The position numbers and the translations under genes are program-made. Shown here one piece after another: positions 2 through 2,757 of a DNA stretch of 64,000 nt; position 1 is the first letter of the stretch, and the number at the start of each line of letters is the position of its first letter. The notes beneath the pieces are model-generated. The model searched no databases. It had not been told where the DNA came from and saw only the letters and a program-made list of their open reading frames with translations. This stretch comes from Polyangiaceae bacterium (lineage in GTDB: Bacteria > Myxococcota_A > Polyangia > Polyangiales > Polyangiaceae), in contig JABTUA010000002.1 in NCBI GenBank assembly GCA_015075635.1, forward strand, positions 2,918,708 through 2,982,707. Reading direction: 5' to 3'.

Positions 2-310
2 GTCAAGAGCGCCAGGCACCTGCTCGAGGTTCGCTCCGAGCTCGCGCTGGACCCCGAGGCTCTCGCAGCCGCCAAGGCGCGCGGCGCCGACGCCCGCAGC
101 GGCGAAGACGACTGCGGCAAGGACGCGGTCGACTGGTCCAAGGGCGAGCCGGCGCTCAGCTGCGACGGCCGGACGGTGAGCGTCGCGCTGCGCCCATCCG
201 CTGCGTGCGGGCAGTTCGGCCACGTGGACACCTGGAAGCTCGAGAGCTCCGGAGATCGCTGGCGGCTCGTCGGCAAGGGAGTGAAGACGCCCGGCTCACC
301 GGCTCGGTGA
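2..310 (+). CDS. C-terminal end of an unrecognised protein (partial)
   Basis: An open frame runs in from the left edge and ends at a TGA at 308-310, giving the last 102 residues of a protein that starts outside the window. The visible part has a short acidic stretch, four cysteines, and a C-terminal half rich in beta-type residues (for example the segment around CGQFGHVDTWKL). I do not recognise the family. Its stop codon lies inside the 3' end of the convergent radical-SAM gene (15 nt overlap), so no terminator separates them. Coding is supported by an unbroken frame with strong GC at third positions. Confidence 0.6.
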   Translation, partial: VKSARHLLEVRSELALDPEALAAAKARGADARSGEDDCGKDAVDWSKGEPALSCDGRTVSVALRPSAACGQFGHVDTWKLESSGDRWRLVGKGVKTPGSPAR

Positions 311-1225
311 GCCCGCGCCGCTTCGCGGCGCGTCGAACGGCAGCATCTCGCTCCAGCCGTAGCGCTCCGGGTACTCGCGCCAGGGGCCTTCGCAGCGTTC
401 GCGCGCGGAGCAAGCCTGGCACGGCGGCCCCTGCACCTTGCCCTCGCGCACCCGCCACTCCGAGTAGTCGAGCCGGCCGTCGAGGTCGCTCACCGTGGTG
501 AGCGGGATGGTCGCCTCGACCGCCAGCTCCTGCATGCCACGCAAGAAGCACAGCGGGACCGCCTCGGTGCAGAGGCGGAGGCCACGCTCCCTCGCGACCC
601 GTTCGGCGCGGCGGAGGGGCTCCACGAGCTCCGACAAACGCGGCACGATCTCGTCGAAGCGCTCGAGCGCCGTGCCCACCGGGTGCACGAAGGCGAGCTG
701 CGCGTTCCTCACGCCAAGGCCCGCGAGGTAGGCGACGAGCTCGTCGAGCAGCTCGACGTTGCGCCTGGTGATCACGCTGTTGGTGACCACCGGCAGACCG
801 GCCTCGAGCGCATTGGCGATCCCACGCGTGGTCTCCGCGAAGCTCCCAGGCGCGCGGGTGAGCTCGTCGTGAACCGCGGCGCTCGCCCCGTGCAAGGACG
901 GAGAGATCTCGGTCACCCCCGCCTCGACCAGCGCCGCGAGCACGTCTCGGTAGGCGAGCAGGCGCCCGTTGGTCTGGAGCTGCACGCTGGAGAAGCCCAG
1001 CGCCCGAGCGGCCCGCACCAGCGGCAAGAGCTTCTTGTAGAGCGTGGGCTCGCCACCGGTCAGGACGACCCCTGTGGCGTCCGGCCGCGCCGCCCGGAGC
1101 TCCGAGAGCAAGAGCGCCGGCGGCCGGGCAGCGCACTCCGTTCGCTTCTCGCCCTGGGCACAGAATAGACAGCGGTTGTTGCAGGCGAAGCCGAGCTTGA
1201 GGTCCAGGCGTCGCGCGACTTCCAC
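296..1225 (-). CDS. Radical SAM enzyme with C-terminal Cys cluster
   Basis: The 309-residue protein has the radical-SAM signature CxxxCxxC (C15, C19, C22) and the GGEP motif at 57-60, followed by a TIM-barrel-like body. A C-terminal segment, CQACSARERC followed by EGPWREYPERYGW, is typical of an extra Fe-S cluster in a widespread, uncharacterised radical-SAM group found in archaea and bacteria. Reductive SAM cleavage is known for the superfamily; the substrate is not. The GTG start at 1223-1225 is chosen because a TAACCT box lies 6 nt upstream and there is no Shine-Dalgarno, which fits a leaderless transcript. The gene is divergent from the HxsB-like maturase with only 32 bp between starts, so the two may be co-expressed. 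It could be an HxsC analogue, but I do not see clear HxsC features. Confidence 0.85.
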   Translation of the reverse strand: MEVARRLDLKLGFACNNRCLFCAQGEKRTECAARPPALLLSELRAARPDATGVVLTGGEPTLYKKLLPLVRAARALGFSSVQLQTNGRLLAYRDVLAALVEAGVTEISPSLHGASAAVHDELTRAPGSFAETTRGIANALEAGLPVVTNSVITRRNVELLDELVAYLAGLGVRNAQLAFVHPVGTALERFDEIVPRLSELVEPLRRAERVARERGLRLCTEAVPLCFLRGMQELAVEATIPLTTVSDLDGRLDYSEWRVREGKVQGPPCQACSARERCEGPWREYPERYGWSEMLPFDAPRSGAGSPSR

Positions 1226-1231
1226 GCGACG

Positions 1232-1249
1232 AGGTTAGCACGCTACGCT
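1232..1249. promoter_or_regulatory. Back-to-back -10 boxes for two leaderless radical-SAM genes
   Basis: The minus strand carries TAACCT (1237-1232), 6 nt before the GTG at 1225. The plus strand carries TACGCT (1244-1249), 8 nt before the ATG at 1258. Neither gene has a Shine-Dalgarno. The two boxes are 6 bp apart, so the two promoters probably overlap and may compete or be jointly controlled. Confidence 0.6.
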
Positions 1250-1257
1250 TGGCTCAC

Positions 1258-2757
1258 ATGCGCCTACTCGAGCTGGGTGTGAGACCGAGGCGACCCGGCA
1301 AGCTGGTGCCCGTGCGCCACCGCAAGGTCGGCGGCGCGGTGCTGCTGGCCTCGCACTTCGGCGACTGGGTGTTCGTCAGCGAGGCCGAGCACGCGGAGCT
1401 CATGGCCGGCAAGCTCGAGGAGGGTTCCGAGCTCGAGGCGCGCCTGCGCTCGCGGAACCTGCTCGCGGACTCGCTCGACACCGTCGCGCTCGCCGAGCGC
1501 ATGCGCAGGAAGAAGTCGTTCCTGCGCTACGGCCCGAACCTGCACGTGCTGGTGGTCACGCTGCGCTGCAACGAGACCTGCGTGTACTGCCACGCCAGCC
1601 GCGCCGCCATGGACCGCGTGGACACCGACATGTCGCGGGAGACCGCCGAGAAGTGCGTGGACCTGGCGCTCCGCTCCACCGCCCCGCGCATCACCCTGGA
1701 GTTCCAGGGCGGCGAGCCCCTCGCCAACTTCCCCGTAGTGCAGCACGCCATCGAGTACGCTCTGGCCAAGAACCGCGCCTACGGCAAGGAGCTCGAGTTC
1801 ACCATGGTGAGCAACCTGTCGCTCTTGAACGACGAGCGGCTCGACTACCTGGTGAAGAACAAGGTGCAGATCTGCACCAGCATCGACGGGCCGCCGACGC
1901 TGCACGACAAACAGCGCGTGCTGGCCGGCGGCAGCGCTTTTCAGCAAGCATCGGGCTGGATCCGCGCCATCAACCAGCGCTACGCGGACATCGGGCTCGA
2001 CCCGACGCTGTACCATGTGGAGGCGCTGATCACCGTCACTCGGGCGGCCCTGGACTACCCTCGCGAGGTCGTCGACACCTACCTCGAGCTCGGCTGCCGC
2101 GCGCTGTTCCTGCGCCCGCTCGATCCCTTCGGCTTCGCCAGCGAGACGGGCCACAAGATCGAGTACGCGCGGCGGAGCTACCTCGACTTCTATCGAGAGG
2201 CCGTGGACTACATGTTGGAGAAGAACGCGGCAGGCGCGGAGATCTTGGAGCGGTACGCGGCCATCTTCCTGACGAAGATCCTGACCGGCGACGACCCCAA
2301 CTTCCTGGACATCCGCTCGCCGTGCGGGGCGGGCATCGGACAGCTCGCCTACAACTACGACGGCAGCCTCTTCACTTGCGACGAGGGCCGCATGCTGCAC
2401 GAGATGGGGGACGATCTGTTCCTGCTCGGCAAGGCCGGCGAGACCAAGTACCGCGAGATCATGACCCACGACACCGTGCGGGCGATGATCGCCGCTTCGA
2501 ACCTGGACGCTCAGCCGGACTGCGTGAGCTGCACCTACGCGGCCTACTGCGGCATCTGTCCGGTCCACAACTACGAGACGCAGGGCTCGCTCCACGGCCG
2601 CATGCGCGAGAGCGACTGGTGCGCCGTGCACAAGGGCATCCAAGACTACTTGTTCGACAAGCTCCGGCAGAACGACCCGGCGGTGGTGAAGACCCTGGAG
2701 CGCTGGACCACCGCCCGAGAGCGCTCGCACTTCCTCCAGCAGTGCGCGTCGAGCTGA
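1258..2757 (+). CDS. hxsB: HxsB-type radical SAM/SPASM peptide maturase
   Basis: The 499-residue protein has an N-terminal domain of about 95 residues (with the GDWVFVS segment), then the radical-SAM site C104, C108, C111 in TLRCNETCVYC, the FQGGEP motif at 149-154, and a SPASM-type C-terminus (SPCGAGIG, NYDG, FTCDEGRM, CVSC, YCGICP, final WC). The order and many segments match His-Xaa-Ser system maturase HxsB, which with HxsC is predicted to modify the repeat protein HxsA. No HxsA, HxsC or HxsD is visible here, and I recall fewer SPASM cysteines in typical HxsB, so this may be a sister family. The ATG at 1258 is preferred over the in-frame TTG at 1249 because TTG overlaps the -10 box. Confidence 0.75.
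   Translation: MRLLELGVRPRRPGKLVPVRHRKVGGAVLLASHFGDWVFVSEAEHAELMAGKLEEGSELEARLRSRNLLADSLDTVALAERMRRKKSFLRYGPNLHVLVVTLRCNETCVYCHASRAAMDRVDTDMSRETAEKCVDLALRSTAPRITLEFQGGEPLANFPVVQHAIEYALAKNRAYGKELEFTMVSNLSLLNDERLDYLVKNKVQICTSIDGPPTLHDKQRVLAGGSAFQQASGWIRAINQRYADIGLDPTLYHVEALITVTRAALDYPREVVDTYLELGCRALFLRPLDPFGFASETGHKIEYARRSYLDFYREAVDYMLEKNAAGAEILERYAAIFLTKILTGDDPNFLDIRSPCGAGIGQLAYNYDGSLFTCDEGRMLHEMGDDLFLLGKAGETKYREIMTHDTVRAMIAASNLDAQPDCVSCTYAAYCGICPVHNYETQGSLHGRMRESDWCAVHKGIQDYLFDKLRQNDPAVVKTLERWTTARERSHFLQQCASS

Follow-up and report, generated by a model that had tools for sequence, protein, structure and literature searches.

The window analyzed here is a 64,000-nucleotide stretch of a Polyangiaceae genome (G000 below, with contigs C2, C3, and C4), and it carries two divergently transcribed radical-SAM genes separated by 32 bp. 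An earlier note on this DNA had claimed such a pair, and it is real: both open reading frames lie where they were placed, one on the minus strand at 296-1225 and the other on the plus strand, ending at 2757. No gene for HxsA, HxsC, or HxsD was called in the roughly 14 kb upstream of the pair, and none adjoins it downstream. The features of the locus are as follows.

296..1225, minus strand: P1, radical-SAM enzyme of an unnamed HxsC-type family, 309 amino acids, GTG start
392..421, minus strand: codons C269-C272-C278 of P1, auxiliary-cluster-like motif, invariant in 64 relatives
548-550, minus strand: codon C226 of P1, part of the auxiliary-cluster-like motif, invariant
1160..1183, minus strand: radical-SAM cluster codons C15-C19-C22 of P1, invariant in 64 relatives
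1226..1257, no strand: divergent intergenic region, 32 bp, from sequence
1232..1237, minus strand: putative -10 box TAACCT of P1, 6 nt before the GTG, consensus only
1244..1249, plus strand: putative -10 box TACGCT of HxsB, 8 nt before the ATG, consensus only
1258..2757, plus strand: HxsB (TIGR03978), radical SAM/SPASM maturase, 499 amino acids, complete seven-Cys SPASM motif
1567..1590, plus strand: radical-SAM motif codons C104-C108-C111 of HxsB, in 46 of 47 HxsB
2323..2325, plus strand: codon C356 of HxsB, first SPASM Cys, Aux I, equivalent to C261 of anSMEcpe
2377..2379, plus strand: codon C374 of HxsB, second SPASM Cys, Aux I, equivalent to C276 of anSMEcpe
2521..2622, plus strand: Aux II span of HxsB (C422, C425, C431, C455), in 47 of 47 HxsB
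2557..2559, plus strand: codon C434 of HxsB, sixth SPASM Cys, Aux I, equivalent to C330 of anSMEcpe

HxsB could start at ATG 1258 or TTG 1249. The ATG agrees with two congeners, in which the gap is 31 bp; the core TAGCACGCTA of the gap is common to both. The pair had been credited with overlapping promoters. Scanning the 32 bp for consensus sigma-70 promoters and for terminators gave no match, but a TAnnnT box precedes each start, the two boxes being opposed. In this genome, a TAnnnT box lies 4 to 9 nt upstream of 20 of 98 starts, versus 1 to 3 of 98 at other distances. This excess makes it plausible that the gap holds two crowded, probably leaderless promoters. Across the window and other stretches of the genome, TAnnnT boxes stand before about one-fifth of starts, which suggests widespread leaderless transcripts.

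The identity of HxsB was upheld by the TIGR03978 model, which scored 531 bits (cut-off, 370) over model positions 2 to 466 of 466, and the radical-SAM CX3CX2C motif is present at C104, C108, and C111. SPASM proteins carry the motif CX9-15GX4C-CX2CX5CX3C-C, whose seven cysteines bind the auxiliary clusters Aux I and Aux II (PMC5715301). In anSMEcpe, Aux II is ligated by C317, C320, C326, and C348 and Aux I by C255, C276, and C330, with C261 discussed as a fourth Aux I position (PMC5715301). HxsB has all seven cysteines, but the spacing ahead of the sixth is CX2C and not CX3C. Three of these, C356, C374, and C434, behave as an all-or-none set: 28 of 82 HxsB sequences have all three, and the rest have at most one. 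HXS1-type HxsB proteins from the same order read A/S/D at these positions, and five from Pseudomonadota read ASD, ASE, or MSD with Aux II kept. The variable set corresponds to Aux I and the constant one to Aux II, and HxsB of the window's genome has the ligands for both clusters. The cysteines that the earlier note found unusual for HxsB are these predicted Aux I ligands, which HXS1-type proteins lack. A single-sequence AlphaFold2 model of HxsB (pLDDT 42) was discarded.

P1 had been described as a different kind of radical-SAM enzyme. Its best models are those for HxsC4 (NF038332, 143 bits; cut-off, 500) and HxsC (TIGR03977, 104 bits; cut-off, 267.9), and it falls short of both curated cut-offs. 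All 64 relatives (41 to 79% identical) match the same two models, with a best E value of 3e-56; in NCBIfam, we found no model covering P1 and these relatives, and no cut-off was reached. A search for a better match to another characterized radical-SAM family also found none. A quick tree placed the 24 P1 rows in one clade (SH-aLRT, 100) and HxsC4 in a separate sister clade (SH-aLRT, 99). Judged by sequence, P1 is an HxsC-type radical-SAM enzyme that is sister to HxsC4, not an unrelated protein. Its radical-SAM motif reads CNNRCLFC. The C-terminal Cys cluster ascribed to it is also there, as C226...C269xxC272x5C278-EGPWxE, with all four cysteines invariant in the 64 relatives, and the P1 and HxsC4 families have in common a tail near the C terminus, CxxCx5C-x-G-x-[WF] followed by GWxEF. 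P1 carries one twitch-like auxiliary-cluster motif. An AlphaFold2 model of P1 (pLDDT 94.6) was closest in fold to SkfB and BlsE.

HxsB had been taken to stand alone, with a substrate encoded elsewhere. Of these two ideas, the second proved right. A search of the 9.47-Mb genome for the (HGS)n pattern returned a single array (C3:753629-753732), while a reversed-pattern control returned 0. The array belongs to HxsA4, present in one copy on contig C3, with a leader beginning KLPTFSRSARGML, then QHC, and then SHG repeats up to a terminal HGSW. The genes flanking it resemble those for pyruvate phosphate dikinase and glutamate-1-semialdehyde aminotransferase (putative names, from sequence). Three further parts lie elsewhere in the genome and are listed here with HxsA4.

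C3:753461-753742: HxsA4, 93 amino acids, GTG start (NF038313, 103.6 bits; cut-off, 55)
C2:377842-378864: HxsC4 (NF038332, 585 bits; cut-off, 500), 2.5 Mb from the pair
C4:81113-81373: HxsD (54.5 bits; cut-off, 50)
C4, adjoining HxsD (both within C4:81077-81723): HxsD-like (NF038315, 70.4 bits; cut-off, 41)

All of these exceed their cut-offs, and the genome has only one HxsB that does so. The parts are not clustered but fall at C2:0.38 Mb, C2:2.92 Mb, C3:0.75 Mb, and C4:81 kb. On C4, HxsD has as neighbors HxsD-like, a methyltransferase, and F4, a 537-amino-acid radical-SAM protein. In relatives, HxsD, HxsD-like, and HxsB are grouped, and the gene that comes next often encodes a small protein with (HGS)n and a Trp at its C terminus; these small proteins are HxsA4 (NF038313, 95 to 108 bits; cut-off, 55). 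Because HxsA4, HxsC4, HxsD, and HxsD-like exist in the genome over curated cut-offs, HxsB is not an orphan; by gene-family assignment, it belongs to a complete but dispersed HXS set. The case shows that a maturase gene standing by itself can have its full pathway scattered through the genome.

Other genes on C4 deserve mention. The region C4:33052-84260 (loci L098-L101) holds further radical-SAM genes, including one for a 758-amino-acid protein with two radical-SAM domains, and in relatives such as G050, G048, and G038, these families occur within 20- to 45-kb clusters that combine HxsB/HxsD with several radical-SAM genes. A truncated radical-SAM gene (C4:80605-81066) adjoins HxsD. At C4:80112-80600 is a gene for a 162-amino-acid protein with a twin-arginine-like N terminus that is kept near HxsD in several relatives and matched nothing in Pfam or NCBIfam.

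We surveyed 184 genomes of the order, counting P1-like radical-SAM matches at E values up to 1e-15. The count per genome was bimodal, at either 0 to 2 or at least 5. The (HGS)n pattern occurred in 63 of the 64 genomes with at least five such enzymes versus 4 of 120 others, and HxsB occurred in 61/64 versus 6/120. The corresponding Fisher values (3e-43 and 1e-37, respectively) ignore shared ancestry; the genomes cover many families of the order. All six HxsB-positive genomes without the radical-SAM suite have HXS1-type HxsB. P1 orthologues were found in 25 genomes of the order, all 25 with (HGS)n and 24 with HxsB, the exception being G044, which is 86% complete. As 39 of the 64 suite-bearing genomes lack P1, it is not essential to every such system. 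What the earlier note had framed as a two-enzyme system is part of a larger one with at least five radical-SAM enzymes; finding HxsA4, HxsC4, HxsD, and HxsD-like led us to abandon the reading of two enzymes and nothing further.

G141 has an (HGS)n array but gave no HxsB match and no P1-like radical-SAM match in the search of the order. In G066, G067, and G069, the (HGS)n arrays are very long or multiple (37 to 48 overlapping pattern matches versus about 5 to 12 in most genomes), and the Aux I positions of their HxsB proteins read SGD. Two genomes (G022:C21:94062-96087 and G038:C70:244418-246555) have a second, divergent HXS system. Its HxsB proteins form a clade of their own and have the full set of Aux I cysteines, and its precursors end in HGQW.

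P1 adjoins HxsB in 9 of the 25 P1-bearing genomes of the order, in four arrangements: divergent (G000, G001, and G002), P1 then HxsB (G034, G042, G114, and G115), HxsB then P1 (G054), and convergent (G018). In the other 16, P1 is not beside HxsB, and around eight stand-alone P1 copies, we saw no constant neighbor other than HxsB. Beyond the order, P1 also neighbors HxsB in other Myxococcota and in Elusimicrobia. At a Bradymonadales locus (L259), HxsB, HxsD-like, and HxsD face HxsC4-P1-F4-F7, and two loci (L270 and L272) are compact HxsC4-P1-F4-F7 clusters; overall, P1 is grouped with HxsC4, F4, F7, HxsD, or HxsB in clusters from Bradymonadales, Oligoflexales, and Elusimicrobia. In several Elusimicrobia loci, (HGS)n genes lie near P1. 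The split layout of G000 recurs in two congeners, whose proteins are 77 to 88% identical to those studied here, and in other genera, such as G008 and G029. Conservation of the pair thus holds across several arrangements and other phyla but is missing from the majority of P1 genomes of the order.

We also compared P1 with the Aux I ligand set. Among type-4 genomes, P1 was present in 21 of 27 with an Aux I-complete HxsB versus 3 of 33 without (Fisher, 5e-8), a value that we do not take at face value because of shared ancestry. In genomes of the order that had not been used to form the idea, the counts were 3/6 versus 2/18 (p 0.08). On an HxsB tree built without the three Aux I Cys columns, the Aux I set changed three times independently; P1 moved the same way in an average of 2.2 of the three changes and never in the opposite way, and with so few changes, a sign test was not significant. 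Where a genome of the order has two HxsB genes and P1 lies beside one, that one is the Aux I-complete copy in 5/5 cases, two of which are near-identical. In a separate genome collection, 20/20 loci with P1 and HxsB contain an Aux I-complete HxsB, 12 of these loci being outside the discovery set. Taken together, these data are suggestive of a link between P1 and Aux I-complete HxsB. It is conceivable, at somewhat less than even chances, that the two are a co-evolving catalytic pair, in which HxsB with Aux I would perform a chemistry on the His-Gly-Ser repeat that is impossible with Aux II alone and P1 would act before or after it. If so, the all-or-none ligand set would be a natural experiment on the role of Aux I, within an unusually large radical-SAM array for one ribosomal peptide. 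In Elusimicrobia, three loci (L273, L291, and L296) have P1 between two HxsB genes, one Aux I-complete and one lacking the Aux I ligands.

We think it probable that HxsB and P1 supply two radical-SAM steps in a single dispersed HxsA4-type HXS system. This reading draws on gene identities, co-occurrence, repeated adjacency, and the Cys pattern, and the enzyme activities are predictions. The HxsA4 precursor would be made in the cytosol, where HxsD and HxsD-like probably bind or present its leader. HxsB, HxsC4, and P1 would then act in turn on the HxsA4 repeat by radical chemistry, and the co-occurring F4 and F7 probably join in modifying it. The likeliest chemistry, which we put forward by analogy and regard as rather doubtful, would be a cross-link within each His-Gly-Ser triplet. 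During C-C bond formation by SuiB, Aux I takes an electron from the substrate radical (PMC9012708), so an HxsB with Aux I may perform an oxidative cross-link. HaaB links C2 of His with the C-beta at position i+2, and MscB joins Phe to the C-beta of Ser (PMC11002830); the spacing of His-Gly-Ser matches these i/i+2 cross-links.

The pair could instead act on another peptide while other enzymes handle HxsA4. Two HxsB copies occur in G031, G034, and G054, and in G031 and G054, the single listed (HGS)n lies near the HxsD-linked HxsB and not near the Aux I-complete copy. Two copies sometimes accompanied by a single array imply that one might have another substrate. We nevertheless consider this unlikely, given that P1 orthologues are confined to (HGS)n genomes (25/25) and that no conserved short open reading frame was noticed adjoining the pair. 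With one HxsB over the cut-off and one (HGS)n gene in the window's genome, HxsB is the sole candidate there for HxsA4.

That P1 has an unrelated job and is beside HxsB through inheritance only would fit its separation from HxsB in 16/25 genomes. This is very unlikely in light of an adjacency that recurs in four arrangements and several phyla, the clusters uniting P1 with other system genes in Bradymonadales, Oligoflexales, and Elusimicrobia, and the choice of the Aux I-complete neighbor in all five two-copy cases. Finally, a defunct system in decay, its genes spread by rearrangement, might explain parts in four genome places and the truncated gene beside HxsD, but this is hardly credible when the cluster cysteines and repeat are intact, the proteins remain 77 to 88% identical to those of two congeners, and the split layout is found in those congeners, G008, and G029.

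The dispersed HxsA4-type system that we favor can be set against those already named. HXS systems were originally predicted from sequence. They comprise HxsA (TIGR03979), HxsB (TIGR03978), HxsC (TIGR03977), and HxsD (TIGR03976), and the set described here has in common with them the HxsB and HxsD families, a His-Xaa-Ser repeat substrate, and a second, HxsC-type radical-SAM enzyme. It departs from them in that its genes are split among four places, no protein of the genome passes the TIGR03977 (HxsC) cut-off, HxsB bears the Aux I cysteines, and P1 is present along with other radical-SAM families. In the open literature searched, we found no solved HXS modification, and mentions of HxsA/B/C/D were not experimental on HXS. 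Of the trio HxsA4, HxsC4, and HxsD-like (NF038313, NF038332, and NF038315), all three exceed their cut-offs in the window's genome; unlike these NCBIfam-named families, P1, F4, F7, and F11 reach no model's cut-off, and the open literature searched yielded no description of the set.

The SPASM maturases CteB (PDB 5wgg, E value of 2e-25) and anSMEcpe align with HxsB through the corresponding seven-Cys motif, but the sixth Cys of HxsB follows CX2C and not CX3C; CteB, anSME, and SuiB are remote HxsB relatives with other substrates. The structures closest to the P1 model, SkfB (Z 23.6; rmsd 2.4 across 240 residues) and BlsE (Z 22.4; rmsd 3.3 across 251 residues), are 22 to 24% identical to P1, and a common fold does not imply the same reaction. 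The three-residue cyclophane enzymes HaaB and MscB offer an analogy only, in that their i/i+2 linkage fits the His-Gly-Ser spacing; unlike that class, HxsB scores far under the cyclophane-enzyme model cut-offs. In our reading, an unnamed radical-SAM component, P1, and an Aux I-complete HxsB belong together in a dispersed HxsA4-type HXS system. Since its candidate substrate, both HxsD-type proteins, and a number of radical-SAM enzymes can be assembled from one genome, reconstitution is possible, and with five genomes carrying both HxsB forms and P1 beside the complete one, the role of Aux I becomes testable within a single family.
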